From contig JAJZOC010000035.1 of the NCBI GenBank assembly GCA_021852095.1, positions 1 through 11,004 on the forward strand: a stretch of 11,004 nt of DNA, written 5' to 3'. The notes below the pieces were generated by a model. It ran no database searches. It saw only the letters and a list, made by a program, of their open reading frames with translations, and was not told the DNA's origin. Made by a program: the position numbers and the translations under genes. This stretch comes from a bacterium (lineage in GTDB: Bacteria > Patescibacteriota > Microgenomatia > Levybacterales > UBA12049). Shown here in pieces: positions 2,390-7,886 of this stretch (position 1 is its first letter; each line of letters starts with the position of its first letter).

Positions 2390-3856
2390 TTACCCATGAG
2401 ATATTAACATATCACCTATAGTAAAGTCAAGAAAAGGCGATATGACCACTCCGCATTCTCCTCCTTTTTCTGTCTTAGAAATACTTTCTTTGCCTTTTCT
2501 GACCGAAATCACATTGCTTTCTCCAATAATCTCATCATTTCTAATCAATCTAACTCTATCTCCTTTAGCGATTCTTCCGTCCTGAACGGAAATACCCATT
2601 ACGAATGTTTTTTCAAAGGGAAATTTTGCCAAAACTTTAGAAACTCCCAAAATTCTCTCTTCCTCCTGCAGTCTTTTTCCTTCAACCGCATCCTTCAGTT
2701 CATCTATTAGTTCATAAATAATTGTGTAGTTTCTTATCAAAACTTTCTCATCTAATGCCAGCTTTTTTACATTTTTTCTAATTTTTGTATTAAACCCTAT
2801 AATAATTGCTCCCGAAGACTTTGCCGATCCTATATCTCCTTCTGTAATCTCGCCTGTTTTCTGATCGATAACAAAAACTAAGTCGGGTAATAATCCTGTT
2901 ATAGCTTCTAATGATCCCAGTGTGTCGGCACGTAAAATAACCTTTATAACTGCTGTTTCTCTTAATTTGGGGTCTAGAGATTTTTTTAAAGACACTAAAG
3001 ATTGAGCGGATTTTTTAGAAGAGTCCTTTTTAAGAACAAATCCGCCTACCTGAACAACGTTTTCCATTCCCAATACTTCGACTGCTTCACCCACTCCGGC
3101 TCGATCAACATTCTCACCTCGATCATTCATTAAGGTTTTTACCTTGCCTTTTACCTCCTCTATTACAATCTCATCTCTTAATGACAGAGTGCCTGATTTA
3201 ACTACGATTGTTGCAACAGGACCTTTTCTTGAATCAAGGTAGCTTTCTATAACAACCCCTTTAAATTCCTCATCCTGTTCTTCCTCCTGCGACTGACTGC
3301 GGGTGTCAAAAACCAAAATGATTAAATCCAAAAGCTCTTTAATATGAAAGTTTGTTTTGGCAGACACTTCCAATACGGGAACGTTTCCGCCCAATCCCTC
3401 CAGCAAAACCCCTTCTTTTGTAAGTTGATCTTTGACCATACGAATATTTTTATTAGGCAGATCCGATTTTGTCAAAACCGCTATGAAGGGCGTTTGCGAT
3501 TCCTGCAAGATTTTTATACTCTCCTTTGTCTGTGGCATCACACCATCCACTGCCGACACAACTAAAAGTGCAACGTCACAAACCCGGGCACCTCTTGAGC
3601 GCATCGCGGAAAATGCTTCATGTCCAGGGGTATCTATAAAGGTAATAATTCTCTTAGTTCCTTCGAAAACGGTTTCAACGCTGGAGGCTCCTATTTTTTG
3701 AGTTATCCCGGCAGTTTCTTTTTTAGCAATATCTGTTTTTCTTATTGAATCAAGCAGACTGGTTTTACCGTGATCCACGTGTCCAAGAACAGTAACAACA
3801 GGAGGTACATTTATTGTTTTTGAAGCATATTTAGCCTTTAGGTTTCTCTTAACCAT
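2390..3856 (-). CDS. infB: Translation initiation factor IF-2, short form
   Basis: This GTPase brings initiator fMet-tRNA to the 30S subunit and promotes 50S joining. The protein is 488 aa, against about 700-900 in common bacteria, because the N-terminal region before the G domain is reduced to about 20 residues. G-domain motifs: GHVDHGKT (25-32), Thr52 in AGIT, DTPGHEAF (75-82), TKSD (129-132) in place of the usual NKxD, and SAK (165-167). Domain II follows from about 197, then the IF-2 core (about 290-390) and the fMet-tRNA-binding C2 domain (about 400-488, with GISVQDGRIAKGD and GGECGV). No Shine-Dalgarno precedes the ATG; the 34-bp gap to nusA is almost pure A/T and holds a TTAATTT/AAATTAA hairpin (3866-3880). 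It is transcribed from the nusA promoter as the middle gene of the operon. Confidence 0.97.
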   Translation of the reverse strand: MVKRNLKAKYASKTINVPPVVTVLGHVDHGKTSLLDSIRKTDIAKKETAGITQKIGASSVETVFEGTKRIITFIDTPGHEAFSAMRSRGARVCDVALLVVSAVDGVMPQTKESIKILQESQTPFIAVLTKSDLPNKNIRMVKDQLTKEGVLLEGLGGNVPVLEVSAKTNFHIKELLDLIILVFDTRSQSQEEEQDEEFKGVVIESYLDSRKGPVATIVVKSGTLSLRDEIVIEEVKGKVKTLMNDRGENVDRAGVGEAVEVLGMENVVQVGGFVLKKDSSKKSAQSLVSLKKSLDPKLRETAVIKVILRADTLGSLEAITGLLPDLVFVIDQKTGEITEGDIGSAKSSGAIIIGFNTKIRKNVKKLALDEKVLIRNYTIIYELIDELKDAVEGKRLQEEERILGVSKVLAKFPFEKTFVMGISVQDGRIAKGDRVRLIRNDEIIGESNVISVRKGKESISKTEKGGECGVVISPFLDFTIGDMLISHG

Positions 3857-3890
3857 AACATATTATTAATTTTAAATTAAAAATTACAAA

Positions 3891-4883
3891 TTATTTACTG
3901 TTTTTTTCTTCAGTCTCCTCTATATCCGTTTGTGTTTCTTCCTCTTCTATTTCTATCCTGTAGCCTGTCAACTTTGATGCAAGACGTACATTCTGACCTT
4001 CTTTACCGATAGCTAAAGAAAGAGAGTCTTTCGGAACAATTACTTTTGCTGTTTTATTTTTGTCATCTATTGTTATATCAACATTCTTTGCCGGAGATAA
4101 TGCTTGGGCAATATAATTTTTAATATCAGTCTTCCACTCAATAATGTCTATTTTTTCAAACCCCCCCAGTTCCGAGATAATAGATTGCACCCTTACACCT
4201 TTTTGTCCGACGCAACTTCCTACAGGGTCTATACCCGGCTGATTTGAATAAACGGCAACTTTTGTTCTGTTACCTGGCTCCCTAACGATAGCTTTAATCT
4301 GAACATTTCCCTGGGAGATTTCCGGAACTTCCCGTTTAAAAAGACCCTCTACAAGTCCGTTATTAGCCCTTGAAACAATAACATCTTCTCCTTTTAACCC
4401 CTTTCTGATTTCTACTACATAAACAGCCATTCTTTGATTTAAACGATATCTCTCGTTTGGTATTTGTTCAGATAGAGGCATTATGCCTTCCGCCCGTCCT
4501 ATATCGAAGATTACATTGGACCCCGCGAAGCGAAGAATCATTCCGCTTACAACCGTACCCACTTTTGTTCTGTAATCGCTTAATATTGCTTCTTTTTCTT
4601 TTTCTCTTATTTTTTGAAGAATAACCTGTTTAGCTGTTTGAGCGGCAATTCTGCCAAATCCAGGAGGGGTTACGTCTTTATTTTTATGCAATATATGGGC
4701 TTCTCCCGTATTTTTATCTAGGGTTGCCGTATATTCTTCTATCTCTATTCCAGGATGATCTTTTCTGTAAGCCGCGAGAATAGCGTTTTCCACTGCTTCT
4801 AAAACAACAGCTTGATTTATTCCTCTTTCTGTAACTACCTGGTTAAGAGCCAGGGAAAATTCACTTCTTTGTATTGCAGGCAT
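3891..4883 (-). CDS. nusA: Transcription elongation/termination factor NusA
   Basis: NusA binds RNA polymerase and nascent RNA to modulate pausing, termination and antitermination. The 330-aa protein has the N-terminal RNAP-binding domain (about 1-105, with the conserved AAQTAKQVILQKIREKEKE at 80-98), an S1 domain (about 106-172), KH1 (GSCVGQKG at 222-229) and KH2 (IGKEGQN at 292-298), then a short acidic tail (E/D/T-rich, 312-330). It lacks the acidic repeats of E. coli NusA (495 aa) and is a little shorter than the Bacillus form. The start at 4883 is supported by family alignment (MPAIQRSEF) and by a promoter whose predicted +1 is the A of this ATG. It is the first gene of the nusA-infB-DHH operon. 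Confidence 0.97.
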   Translation of the reverse strand: MPAIQRSEFSLALNQVVTERGINQAVVLEAVENAILAAYRKDHPGIEIEEYTATLDKNTGEAHILHKNKDVTPPGFGRIAAQTAKQVILQKIREKEKEAILSDYRTKVGTVVSGMILRFAGSNVIFDIGRAEGIMPLSEQIPNERYRLNQRMAVYVVEIRKGLKGEDVIVSRANNGLVEGLFKREVPEISQGNVQIKAIVREPGNRTKVAVYSNQPGIDPVGSCVGQKGVRVQSIISELGGFEKIDIIEWKTDIKNYIAQALSPAKNVDITIDDKNKTAKVIVPKDSLSLAIGKEGQNVRLASKLTGYRIEIEEEETQTDIEETEEKNSK

Positions 4884-4918: not shown

Positions 4919-4950
4919 GCAGCAGTCTTACCAAATCAAAAAGTGAAGTG
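4919..4950 (+). repeat. Left terminal inverted repeat of the IS (32 bp)
   Basis: Aligned with the reverse complement of 6304-6336: GC, GCAGTC, TACC, AATC, AA and AAGTGAAGTG are shared, with single-base differences between these blocks and one missing base. The outermost matching base is G4919. Confidence 0.85.
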
Positions 4951-5014
4951 AACGGGTTACGTGTACCTAACCGAAAAAGAGAAGTAGATAGGTAGGGAGA
5001 AAAAAATTATCTCT

Positions 5015-5042
5015 TTGCGGAACAAACGCGAACCGCCATAAT
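5015..5042 (+). promoter_or_regulatory. Candidate transposase promoter
   Basis: TTGCGG (5015-5020) and CATAAT (5037-5042; five of six consensus bases) are 16 bp apart, giving a predicted +1 near 5049, about 4 nt before the ATG at 5053. The -35 is weak (three of six), but the near-leaderless layout matches other promoters in this window. It lies inside the inner inverted repeat of the element, so bound transposase could repress its own gene (inference). Confidence 0.4.
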
Positions 5043-5052
5043 AGATTCTGTC

Positions 5053-6294
5053 ATGAAAGTAATTATGGATGATTCGCGTTTAATTAATGTTACACAATTA
5101 AGAGAGTTTTTAAAAGGCTCACAAAAAGTGGTAGTTTCATTGGAGGACGCGGCACTATCTGAGAAGTACGCGTTTATCGGGAGAACAATCAAACGCTTTT
5201 CGTATCAAAACTTAGCAAGAAAAGAAAAGCATATTGTGATTTCCTATCTCCATAAGGTAACCGGTTACAAAAAAGGCAGGCTTTATCAATTTATCAAAAG
5301 AGCTGAGAGAGGAAAGTTACAAAAGGCAATATATGTCAGATCCAATCCAGTAAAGATCTATGTGACAAAAGACATTAAACTTTTAGAGACAACTGATGAG
5401 CTGCATCTGCGGTTATCAGAAGATGCTACTAAAAAGATACTAGAGAGGGAATATGAGGTATTTGGAAAGAAGGATTACCAAACCATTGCCCGTGTTTCCC
5501 ATTCCCATATTACCAATCTTCGGCACTGCCCAATGTACAAATCTTCCTGGATAAATCATACTAAATCCAGACAGATTCCTATTGGTATGACTATGCCGCC
5601 CAAAAACTATGGTAAACCAGGCTCAATTAGGGTTGATTCTGTATCTCAAAAGGATGTTTATCACATTAATTCTGTTGATGAGATTACTCAATGGGAGATA
5701 GTCTTCTGTGTCCCTCAGCTCTCGGAGCGGTATATGCTGCCGGTATTGGAAGAAATCATTACTCAATATCCATTTGTGATCTTTAACTTCCATTCAGACC
5801 GGGGAAAAGAAACCATTAATTACCTTGTCGCTGATCTACTTCAAAGGTTGGTTATCAAACAAACTAAAAACAGATCCTACCATTCAGGAGATAATGCTCT
5901 TTGTGAAACTAAGAACGGATCAGTTATCAGAAAAAACATGGGCTGGGAACATATCAACCAAAGCATGTGTAACGAAATTAACAATTACTACAAAAACTTC
6001 TTTAATCTTTATCTAAATTTCCACCGTCCCTGCGGTTATCCTACCGTTGAAGTTGACACTAAAGGCAAGAAGAAAAAAGTCTATGATAATTACCAGGTAC
6101 CTTATGAATTCTTAAAATCTCTACCCAACGTGGAGAAGTATTTAAAACCAGAAATAACTTTTGATAAACTTGATAAAATCGCTTACCAGATGTCAGATAA
6201 TGATTTTGCTGGTATAATGAGGAAGGAAGAAAGAAAACTCTTCCAAAAAATTAGAGAAGAAGATAGAAAAGACGGTTCGCAAAGAAAAACATAA
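5053..6294 (+). CDS. IS transposase with rve-type DDE catalytic core (413 aa)
   Basis: This is the transposase of the surrounding element, cutting and joining DNA at the terminal repeats. Residues about 1-90 look like a helical DNA-binding region (including VISYLHKVTGYKKGRLYQFIKR, 62-83), and a second region to about 165 contains ILEREYEVFGKKDYQTIARVSHSHITNLR, resembling a helix-turn-helix. The catalytic core has D195 in GSIRVDSVSQKD, D249 in NFHSDRGKETIN and E285 in GDNALCETKNGSVIRKNMG. Exactly 35 residues lie between D249 and E285, the D,D(35)E spacing of integrase-type cores. NFHRPCGYP (322-330) is the post-core motif common in this group, and the tail is very basic. The frame is intact, so the element may be active. 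A near-leaderless promoter is the likely start signal. Confidence 0.92.
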   Translation: MKVIMDDSRLINVTQLREFLKGSQKVVVSLEDAALSEKYAFIGRTIKRFSYQNLARKEKHIVISYLHKVTGYKKGRLYQFIKRAERGKLQKAIYVRSNPVKIYVTKDIKLLETTDELHLRLSEDATKKILEREYEVFGKKDYQTIARVSHSHITNLRHCPMYKSSWINHTKSRQIPIGMTMPPKNYGKPGSIRVDSVSQKDVYHINSVDEITQWEIVFCVPQLSERYMLPVLEEIITQYPFVIFNFHSDRGKETINYLVADLLQRLVIKQTKNRSYHSGDNALCETKNGSVIRKNMGWEHINQSMCNEINNYYKNFFNLYLNFHRPCGYPTVEVDTKGKKKKVYDNYQVPYEFLKSLPNVEKYLKPEITFDKLDKIAYQMSDNDFAGIMRKEERKLFQKIREEDRKDGSQRKT

Positions 6295-6303
6295 CCGTAA
6301 TTA

Positions 6304-6336
6304 CACTTCACTTATTCGATTAGGTATGACTGCAGC
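6304..6336 (-). repeat. Right terminal inverted repeat of the IS (33 bp)
   Basis: Inverted partner of 4919-4950, beginning 9 nt after the transposase stop codon. Its outermost matching base is C6336; the next pair (4918/6337) no longer matches. Confidence 0.85.
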
Positions 6337-6346
6337 AGTATAGTTC

Positions 6347-6375
6347 TTGACAATCAGAAGGGTTTATTGGATACT
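6347..6375 (+). promoter_or_regulatory. Strong promoter of the attenuator leader and 291-aa gene
   Basis: A perfect TTGACA -35 (6347-6352) and GATACT -10 (6370-6375) are separated by 17 bp. The predicted +1 is about 6382, the A of the leader ORF start codon. It begins 10 bp outside the right end of the insertion sequence. Confidence 0.7.
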
Positions 6376-6381
6376 TAGGTT

Positions 6382-6435
6382 ATGAATAGATTCTCTCAAA
6401 CATCAATTAAGTGCCTCGTCATTATTGTAAATTGA
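6382..6435 (+). CDS. Candidate 17-aa leader peptide
   Basis: ATG at the predicted +1 opens a 17-codon frame, MNRFSQTSIKCLVIIVN, ending in TGA (6433-6435). Its last codons run through the first arm of hairpin 1 (6414-6421), and its stop codon sits on the second arm. This is the placement used by attenuator leader peptides. The cluster Leu-Val-Ile-Ile-Val would be the natural control codons if translation is sensed, but the downstream gene has no visible link to branched-chain amino acids. It may be a fortuitous short frame; no Shine-Dalgarno is needed if the message is leaderless. Confidence 0.4.
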   Translation: MNRFSQTSIKCLVIIVN

Positions 6436-6487
6436 CGGGGAGGATTTATGTTGTAAGAAATCCTCCTAACACAGGAGGATTTTTTTT
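6414..6487 (+). promoter_or_regulatory. Attenuator-like leader with mutually exclusive hairpins
   Basis: Four segments can pair alternatively. Segment 1 (CCTCGTCA, 6414-6421) pairs with segment 2 start (TGACGGGG, 6433-6440). Segment 2 end (GGAGGATTT, 6439-6447) pairs perfectly with segment 3 (AAATCCTCC, 6458-6466). Segment 3 also pairs perfectly with segment 4 (GGAGGATTT, 6474-6482), which runs into the T-tract. Hairpin 2:3 therefore prevents the terminator, while 1:2 weakens 2:3. This is the topology of classic amino-acid attenuators. Both GGAGG copies also look like ribosome sites: the first precedes a two-codon frame (ATG TTG TAA, 6448-6456) in the loop of 2:3, the second a nine-codon frame (MDKIWQIMN, 6488-6517). 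Confidence 0.6.
6458..6487 (+). terminator. Intrinsic terminator before the 291-aa gene
   Basis: A 9-bp perfect stem (6458-6466 with 6474-6482) with loop TAACACA is followed by a run of eight T (6480-6487). It is the best terminator in the window, yet it stands upstream of a gene and downstream of a strong promoter, so it either controls read-through or ends a short RNA of about 105 nt. Confidence 0.85.
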
Positions 6488-6498
6488 ATGGACAAAAT

Positions 6499-7374
6499 AT
6501 GGCAAATCATGAATTAGTTCCCGATATAACAGCACATAATATGTTGCTCTATGGTACGCCTAATCCTCAGCAAAAAGAAATTATAGCTGCAAAGGATCTT
6601 AATTCTGTTCCTCCTATTTTTGATGTAATACCAAGAACAGACGGCAGGCCGTATGCAATTTTCCCTGACGATGTAATTTTTTCATCTTCGGAAGAAAATA
6701 AAAAATATATTACCGAACGAGCAGCAGTCTTAGGTCTAGTTATAGTAATGGCTATGGATTTGAAGTCTAATGGTATATTCGACATAAATTCTCCCCGCCA
6801 AACTCAACGATTAATGCAATTCGAGAGATTAATAGAAGTAGCAGATGATTTGGAAAGGGATCTTGATGGATCTTTTACCAAAGAACAAACAGAACAAGAA
6901 GAATATGTTCGGAGATTAGTACAAACGTTAAGGCATGTTGCTGCTTCTTGGTATAGAAGCGAATTTTCAACAGATTTACTTACGAAACAAGCTACTAAGG
7001 GTTCGGTTTCGGGAGGATTGCCTCAAACAGACGACGTATTAAGAGAAACAGACGCGCTATTAAGAAAAAATTCTTTTTATCTTGATGATATCTACAATGA
7101 AGTTGAGATAATTTTGCATCCTCGGCAAAAACAAATAGACCCAGAGGTAAAAAAACTTACAAGTCAATCTAAGAAAAGAGACGCAGAATTAGAATCTAAA
7201 ACATCTTCTATGGCAGAAGAAGAGCGAGAGAAAATTAAAGAAGAAATATTGCAGAGAATTACCCAAAAAATCGACAAACAAACATCAGGCGATATATATG
7301 TACATAATCAATTAGATGAACCAAGCAAAAGCGCAGCTGCCTATGTCGAAGAACTTTGGAAAAGACCTTTTTAG
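6499..7374 (+). CDS. Unrecognised charged protein (291 aa)
   Basis: No family is recognised. There is no signal peptide. Residues 75-88 (AAVLGLVIVMAMDL) are the most hydrophobic part but look like a buried helix rather than a clear membrane span. Residues about 100-160 are helical and charged, about 215-262 are a K/E/Q-rich likely coiled coil, and the C-terminus (AAAYVEELWKRPF) is short and amphipathic. The N-terminal segment (VIPRTDGRPYAIFPDDVIF, 43-61) looks like a compact beta-rich part. The first in-frame ATG is at 6499, but the strong GGAGG is 20 nt away and better spaced for an overlapping nine-codon frame at 6488, which could modulate initiation. No separate promoter is seen after the terminator, so expression probably depends on read-through of the attenuator. 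Confidence 0.75.
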   Translation: MANHELVPDITAHNMLLYGTPNPQQKEIIAAKDLNSVPPIFDVIPRTDGRPYAIFPDDVIFSSSEENKKYITERAAVLGLVIVMAMDLKSNGIFDINSPRQTQRLMQFERLIEVADDLERDLDGSFTKEQTEQEEYVRRLVQTLRHVAASWYRSEFSTDLLTKQATKGSVSGGLPQTDDVLRETDALLRKNSFYLDDIYNEVEIILHPRQKQIDPEVKKLTSQSKKRDAELESKTSSMAEEEREKIKEEILQRITQKIDKQTSGDIYVHNQLDEPSKSAAAYVEELWKRPF

Positions 7375-7469: not shown

Positions 7470-7886
7470 ATGCAGAGAGAAAGAATAGAAGGAATATCAA
7501 TCAGAAGCGAAGAAGATGTTGTCGGCATTCCGGGGATATCAGAACAGCAACTTGCTCTTTTTTTGATTCGTGAAAGGCCTCATTTGGAAGTAGCTTACGA
7601 GAAAGTAATATTTGAGTATGTTAAAGATGATGGAAGATTAATAGGTACAACTCCTGATTTTCGGATAACAAATACAAGAACAGGACAAGTAGTATATCTG
7701 GAGATTACAACAGCATCGCTAAATGGTAAAGATCCAAAAGAAAGGCAAAAAACAGTAATGAAATCTCATCCAGGAGTGCGCTATACGGTATTGTATAGAG
7801 AGAATCTAAGACTAATACAGGAGAAACATCAAGACTATAGATTCTTTAACGGGAAGAAAATGAGAGAAGAAGAAATTATTATATAG
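7470..7886 (+). CDS. Small protein with PD-(D/E)XK nuclease-like core (138 aa)
   Basis: Residues 44-80 resemble a PD-(D/E)XK fold core: E44 in a helix-strand (YEKVIFEYV), then TPDF (61-64) with D63 at the start of a strand, a turn (TNTRTGQ) and YLEITTAS with E78. The catalytic Lys of the usual ExK is Thr80 here. Lys94 or Lys98 downstream might replace it, as happens in some families, or the enzyme may be inactive. A helix with K94 and K98 and a strand (RYTVLYR, 104-110) follow as expected. The N-terminal 35 residues (GIPGISEQQLALFLIRERP) could be a small helical domain. It has its own near-leaderless promoter, 95 bp after the 291-aa gene. Nuclease activity and target are not shown; the fold call is moderate. 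Confidence 0.7.
   Translation: MQRERIEGISIRSEEDVVGIPGISEQQLALFLIRERPHLEVAYEKVIFEYVKDDGRLIGTTPDFRITNTRTGQVVYLEITTASLNGKDPKERQKTVMKSHPGVRYTVLYRENLRLIQEKHQDYRFFNGKKMREEEIII

Follow-up and report, generated by a model that had tools for sequence, protein, structure and literature searches.

The window analysed here is a stretch of 11,004 nucleotides from a contig of the order Levybacterales, read on its forward strand and belonging to an assembly of 656,910 bases in 96 contigs that is 57% complete. It carries infB-like and nusA-like genes on the minus strand (2390-4883, as read from their translations) and an IS481-like element at 4924-6331, with the ends AGTCTTACC.. and ..GGTATGACT and the flank GCAGC on both sides (4919-4923 and 6332-6336). 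The transposase of this element (5053-6294) matches NF033577 with an E value of 4.7e-7, below the cut-off of that family, and its right end recurs, exact or nearly so, on other contigs of the source genome and in two further genomes, G066 and G071. The element ends 15 nt upstream of a promoter that the insertion left untouched, and beyond this promoter lies a 291-aa gene transcribed away from the nusA-like gene. A 138-aa gene downstream of it (7470-7886) is preceded by promoter-like sites and has a very weak resemblance to the MunI restriction enzyme (E 0.089). The features between the promoter and the end of the 291-aa gene are:

6347..6375, plus strand: promoter TTGACA-17-GATACT, read directly, score 10/12, kept in the relative L078
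6382..6435, plus strand: putative leaderless leader ORF of 17 codons, MNRFSQTSIKCLVIIVN, plus TGA (6433-6435), its position relative to the promoter typical of the family described below
6409..6426, plus strand: predicted control codons AAG TGC CTC GTC ATT ATT (Lys Cys Leu Val Ile Ile)
6414..6421, plus strand: segment 1, CCTCGTCA, pairing with TGACGGGG at 6433-6440
6433..6447, plus strand: segment 2, of which 6433-6440 pairs with segment 1 and 6438-6447 with segment 3
6455..6467, plus strand: segment 3, AAGAAATCCTCCT, pairing with AGGAGGATTTTTT at 6473-6485 (3:4)
6473..6487, plus strand: segment 4 and T run, the 3' arm of the predicted terminator; GGAGG at 6474-6478 is also Shine-Dalgarno-like
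6488..6517, plus strand: mini-ORF ATG GAC AAA ATA TGG CAA ATC ATG AAT TAG, overlapping the gene start, a layout shared by relatives
6499..7374, plus strand: 291-aa gene, the presumed target, with two relatives 44% and 30% identical

The initial annotation had described a promoter, a 17-codon ORF, segments able to pair as 1:2, 2:3 or 3:4 and a run of eight T, and all of these are present by direct reading. TTGACA (6347-6352) and GATACT (6370-6375) are separated by a 17-nt spacer, and the leader ATG (6382-6384) lies six bases downstream of the -10 element, at the spacing usual for the family; translation of the leader is predicted from the sequence. As a class, promoter-like sites are not enriched in the window (36 vs 37.4 in shuffles). 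In the 2:3 pairing, GGGAGGATTT (6438-6447) pairs with AAATCCTCCT (6458-6467), and the T run occupies 6480-6487. The mini-ORF has nine codons and its ATG, at 6488, stands 9 nt past GGAGG, while the ATG of the 291-aa gene, at 6499 inside the mini-ORF, is 20 nt from it. A terminator scan of the window did not list the 3:4 hairpin because, in our reading, the stem runs into the T run.

Computed alone, the pairings have energies of -11.9 (1:2), -13.3 (2:3) and -15.9 (3:4) kcal/mol, and none of 200 shuffles matched the folding of the 109-nt RNA (z -3.79) or that of the region 6410-6490 (z -4.55). By computation 2:3 and 3:4 are mutually exclusive, and 3:4 has the shape of a terminator, which it is predicted to be. 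Since the overlap between 1:2 and 2:3 is only about three bases, and 2:3 can coexist with five 1:2 pairs (energy -18.5, without a ribosome), segment 1 makes a weak lock. It had been proposed that a ribosome paused in segment 1 frees segment 2 and that one at the stop codon covers it, and a simulation reproduced this as a matter of geometry, with the ribosome assumed to cover the RNA as far as 13 nt beyond the first base of the codon in its A-site. An A-site at 6406-6424 leaves 2:3 (-13.3 to -12.9) while segment 4 is not yet made, and the positions 6427, 6430 and the stop abolish it, with -4.5 to -1.6 left before segment 4. With segment 4 in place, 3:4 is the most favourable fold at all ribosome positions tried, that of the stalled ribosome included, so read-through would need 2:3 to have formed first and to persist.

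The same architecture occurs elsewhere. A DNA search with the leader matched another genome of the same family, where a cystathionine/cysteine synthase family gene is preceded by the leader MKLQNTIICCTILS, which contains two Cys codons, and by the same segments and terminator as in the window. We then used a pattern composed of segment 2, segment 3, segment 4 and the T run, with the reversed pattern as control. In a sample of the phylum, the pattern was present in 34 of 379 genomes, by our count 14 of 32 in the window's class and 20 of 347 in the rest, at no fewer than 49 places (two of them overlapping) vs 2 reversed-pattern matches, a frequency far in excess of chance. Across the class it was found in 170 of 373 genomes, and the control counts listed for the reversed pattern were all zero. 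We worked with 173 distinct places, including 17 further ones among those listed in the phylum search and 92 chosen by eye among the class matches listed, and at 164 of these a short leader ORF ends near segment 2. Leaders were chosen by promoter score and position, the gene not being used. For 83 of the 164 a promoter of at least 10/12 ends no more than 12 nt before the ATG, a figure to be read with the 0-12 nt limit of this first scan, which biases the choice of leader; a later scan covered 45 nt with the chosen ATG kept. Stem 1:2 (at least 8 pairs, G-T allowed) is commoner in these leaders than in codon-shuffled ones (96/164 vs 257/820). Two candidates were set aside on reading: L011 (G013), an apparent second copy, reads as a hisG gene with T-box-like features, and L017, also in its turned orientation, is not an attenuator.

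In the window's own family, argS scores over its cut-off in 51 of 73 genomes. Among 30 argS upstream stretches, those in gene orientation mostly showed no attenuator by eye, and argS attenuators were found only in G053 and G004. Many of the argS upstream stretches in gene orientation (L084-L106) have, by eye, a -10-like box close before the start, as if argS were itself leaderless.

The later scan found a promoter of at least 10/12 within 45 nt of 101 leaders, and for 86 of these the distance to the ATG is 6-13 nt. For comparison, five points were placed at random upstream in each locus, as far as its length permitted, and these yielded 12 such promoters in total. A Shine-Dalgarno-like sequence precedes the leader ATG in 1 of 83. 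From the promoter position we infer that leaders of the family begin at, or a few bases from, the 5' end of the RNA. Segment 4 usually appears to serve as a Shine-Dalgarno sequence as well. Of the 118 loci that have a leader and a promoter scoring 8/12 or better, 61 have a start codon (ATG, GTG or TTG) at exactly 7 nt past the GGAGG in segment 4; the corresponding counts are 24 and 17 for distances of 5 and 8 nt, and between 2 and 11 for every distance from 10 to 29 nt. A start 6-9 nt past GGAGG is present in 87 of the 118, opening an ORF of at least 50 codons in 26 and a mini-ORF in 61, and in 28 of the 118 a mini-ORF overlaps the start of a longer ORF, in a layout like that of the window. 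The same 7-nt peak is equally strong at places without a scored leader and promoter (29/55), so it marks the type of terminator rather than the leader and is no proof of attenuation on its own.

For 46 leaders the gene downstream could be assigned to an amino acid, and 45 of them contain cognate codons, the exception being the pheA leader of L140, with no Phe. The sum over the best five codons is 154, vs a mean of 55 and a maximum of 88 in 20,000 shuffles of the labels, and with one locus per gene family (25 loci) it is 81, vs a mean of 30 and a maximum of 51. Counted from segment 2, the cognate fraction peaks at -24 (35/46), ranges from 46% to 76% at -30 to -18, falls to 35% at -15 and lies at 0-22% at the remaining positions listed. 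The control zone of -30 to -15 is therefore measured on these 46 loci of the same architecture and not assumed. Downstream genes were named by NCBIfam, with several scores below the curated cut-off, partly as genes are cut by the end of the locus, and 16 of the 46 labels come from BLAST to exemplars, the second batch of which was chosen with the leaders in view. The sets of amino acids accepted for each gene, such as Thr/Lys/Met for aspartokinase and Trp/Phe/Tyr for DAHP synthase, were likewise written after leaders had been seen. Of the 109 loci that combine a leader with a gene of at least 90 aa, 63 stayed unlabelled.

An earlier set, comprising all 37 other downstream genes of at least 100 aa, gave 12 cognate cases among 13 assignable genes, a result reached by none of 100,000 shuffles. 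Of the remainder, 16 had no NCBIfam name at 1e-5 and 8 had names not tied to one amino acid (including greA, two rpsB and a glutamate-cysteine-ligase-like gene); ten of the less clear genes were taken to Pfam, where two were named. Individual leaders illustrate the correspondence: MFAFPAIFTTTTTG (Thr5) precedes thrS and MTQTQHDVRRRNL (Arg3) argS, and leuS, lysS and metG follow MKRFLSFLLLNFA, MQLHTNLKKAAKKQNS and MNVDTSMMMVIVSV, respectively. The same holds for further genes, with MISQTSVMMDMMNAS before a SAM hydrolase, MNTNQVNYFSFYFYFATRREVS (Trp/Phe/Tyr codons) before DAHP synthase, MVLRRLRNLIVTTTTTSTKEVS before aspartokinase (labelled by BLAST), MSWNLSNITKKTTKTAFQRREFS before aspartokinase in another lineage, and MNSRVDVNNNFSPSSSSDLNFGRFMVL before a serB-serA-like fusion. 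In L073 (G074:C17) a leader containing ..LHHSHTN.. stands before a gene with histidine racemase matches in NCBIfam, under the cut-off, and its His-His-Ser-His codons support histidine as the probable substrate. The proposal of a leaderless leader peptide joined to an attenuator thus finds support in the recurrence of the arrangement across the class with codons cognate to the downstream gene.

In the window, the positions -30 to -15 are held by Lys Cys Leu Val Ile Ile. The control codons had been given as Leu-Val-Ile-Ile-Val; the first four fall inside the zone and the last Val just outside it. No other type of zone is as common as that with at least four Ile, Leu or Val (43 of 164, counting the window), so that the run Leu-Val-Ile-Ile is weak evidence by itself. 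Ten ORFs behind such leaders, hand-picked and mostly the second ORF downstream, comprised ileS twice, threonine ammonia-lyase, RelA/SpoT, a PepT-like peptidase, prephenate dehydratase, acetolactate synthase (one clear case and one weak fragment) and two without a name. Acetolactate synthase and citramalate synthase also stand directly behind two other Ile/Leu/Val leaders, yet at L241, where the leader is Ile-rich, the named second gene is prephenate dehydratase. Our best guess for the window is that its leader would sense branched-chain amino acids; sensing of cysteine, through the codon at -27, is possible. At L201 (G292:C15), an Ile/Leu/Val-rich leader attenuator lies upstream of the RelA/SpoT family gene, with a short ORF between. 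L062 (G150) and L191 (G258) apparently share a protein family (..YL.ERG.LV.LP..LAQ..) that has Ile/Leu/Val leaders and no NCBIfam name.

Two relatives of the 291-aa gene turned up in a pattern-based search of 84,980 species genomes, both on contigs of Levybacteria, which belong to the Microgenomates group of the Patescibacteria. Genome searches placed relatives, presumably the same two, in one genome of the window's family (G050) and one of the order (G066); none was found in the viral contigs scanned. The protein has no useful match in Pfam, NCBIfam, PHROGs, PADLOC or PDB sequences, and the protein-family and PDB sequence searches gave no link to branched-chain amino acids. Of the two relatives, L078 (44% protein identity) keeps the promoter block and hairpin 1:2, and a hand alignment of that stem shows one two-sided change (C-G to T-A) and one one-sided change (T-G to T-A), while a two-sequence MAFFT alignment puts the copies of segment 1 three columns apart. 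Its leader, ATA AAT AGT TTT GTT CAA GTC TAA GCT CTG AAA AAA CAT CTC GTC ATT GAC AAT TGA, is in the same frame as that of the window, with the start ATG changed to ATA, an in-frame TAA and the end LVIDN in place of LVIIVN. By our reading of the upstream sequence, L078 has no terminator ahead of the gene, and no such leader was seen upstream of L079 (30% identical). Among 82 genomes of the order, no other has the promoter block, even with up to 3 mismatches allowed. The idea that the leader belongs to the transposon is rejected, as L078 shares the promoter and hairpin and the end of the element was not seen in the stretch read before it.

The loss of leader start and terminator in L078 and the lack of such a leader in L079 mean that the attenuator is not a fixed property of the 291-aa gene. 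Comparison of homologous loci, which the initial annotation had offered as a check, accordingly gave a divided answer, the promoter and hairpin 1:2 being kept in L078, the leader start and terminator being lost there and no such leader being seen in L079. Such conservation is not essential to an attenuator of this kind, so its failure lowers confidence only.

Taken together, these results are best explained by a ribosome-controlled transcription attenuator of the trp/ilv type with a leaderless leader ORF, a prediction to which we assign a probability of about 0.72. Transcription would start at or beside the leader ATG. When Leu, Val or Ile (possibly Cys) is short, the ribosome would wait at 6409-6426 and cover segment 1, leaving segment 2 free to pair with segment 3 before segment 4 is made, and RNA polymerase would read on into the 291-aa gene. 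With no shortage, the ribosome would reach the stop at 6433 and cover segment 2, 3:4 would form and transcription would end. The Shine-Dalgarno-like sequence of the mini-ORF that overlaps the start of the 291-aa gene lies in segment 4, so that pairing 3:4 would keep ribosomes from this site as well.

The window could also hold a decaying or orphaned attenuator, an ancestral amino-acid switch that is now partly relaxed and in which the terminator mostly dampens transcription into the 291-aa gene to a constant degree. The fate of L078 is what such decay would look like, with a broken leader frame (start lost, in-frame stop, ..LVIDN* vs ..LVIIVN*) and the terminator gone while the gene is kept, and the IS481-like element ending 15 nt ahead of the promoter fits as well. 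In the window, however, promoter, frame, pairings and T run are all intact and the insertion spared the promoter, so we regard decay at this locus as unlikely. A second possibility is that the promoter serves to make a small RNA of ~105 nt, which ends at the terminator, and that transcription reaching the gene is incidental. A length of ~105 nt is indeed bracketed by promoter and terminator, sub-threshold Rfam resemblances include the small RNAs ncr1575 and STnc370, and terminated attenuator RNAs can act in trans, as described for rnTrpL (PMC7298713). That family members hold cognate codons before matching genes, and that stems 2:3 and 3:4 share segment 3, speaks for attenuation instead; a terminated RNA of ~105 nt is expected from an attenuator too, and this alternative, raised in the initial annotation, is left with little support and is improbable.

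Control by a bound protein or metabolite in place of the ribosome (T-box, riboswitch or autoregulation) draws on the leaders that we read as T-box-like at some matches of the first class search (L029, L030, L043, L027, L039 and L042). Neither the window nor any of 20 family loci had an Rfam match at gathering threshold, and in the window the T-box was absent both at that level and among the eight weak matches, which makes such control very improbable here. A type III toxin-antitoxin locus, in which an RNA antitoxin and a terminator precede the toxin gene, shares the order of promoter, RNA, terminator and gene only and is rejected, given that 6300-6560 contains no tandem repeats and that scans with Pfam, PADLOC, NCBIfam and PHROGs gave no toxin family and no ToxN-like gene.

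Gene regulation in Patescibacteria is little studied, as few of them can be cultured. The attenuator had been presented as a novel use in a reduced genome, and the recurrence of leaderless attenuators across the class goes against a one-off; what is unusual in the window is the uncharacterised target gene. The window is thus a somewhat irregular member of the family, and the family matters more than this locus. We tentatively suggest that the leaderless attenuators of the Microgenomates group, with a Shine-Dalgarno sequence in the terminator arm, could form a general control of amino-acid starvation whose branched-chain branch reaches starvation-response genes, the 291-aa gene being a starvation-induced factor within it. 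In that branch, RelA/SpoT and the PepT-like peptidase lie behind one leader each, in both cases with an unnamed ORF in first position. If this were true, leader codons would reveal from the sequence which amino acid each gene answers to, uncharacterised genes included, and would show which pathways reduced genomes still manage; leaderless initiation would be the usual entry point for a whole set of attenuators, and the terminator would double as a lock on the ribosome site.

Among known attenuators, that of trpL in Sinorhizobium meliloti belongs to the Alphaproteobacteria. The closest Rfam resemblance in the window, as judged by E value among the weak matches, is Phe_leader (RF01859) at 6420-6488, covering the segments and terminator; at 27.3 bits vs a gathering score of 55, the window is not a member of that family. 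Among the best-ranked matches in the open-licence full-text literature, no such attenuator was reported for Patescibacteria, and the one paper on Microgenomates among them that contains the words leader peptide uses them, in the passage concerned, for bacteriocin peptidases. The authors of a survey from 2010 stated that they knew of leader-peptide systems demonstrated in Proteobacteria and Actinobacteria only, leaving ermC aside, and themselves added Firmicutes (PMC2965389). Leaderless leader-peptide attenuators as such are already known. The RNA of trpL/rnTrpL in S. meliloti has its 5' end at the leader ATG and is subject to ribosome-dependent attenuation, as proposed for the window, but it senses Trp and its leader peptide has additional roles in trans (PMC7298713). 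The ilvBNC attenuator of Corynebacterium glutamicum, with the leader MTIIRLVVVTARRLP and a start site one nucleotide from the start codon, resembles the window in its branched-chain codons and in its terminator, antiterminator and anti-antiterminator (PMC11857589). It differs in belonging to the Actinobacteria and in having a biosynthetic operon as its target, and the account of its structure in that report makes no mention of a Shine-Dalgarno sequence in the terminator (PMC11857589). Finally, the screening of 302 genomes for premature terminators described leader-peptide attenuators with runs of His codons before aminoacyl-tRNA synthetase genes (PMC2965389), and runs of cognate codons before such genes are what those attenuators share with the family to which the window belongs.
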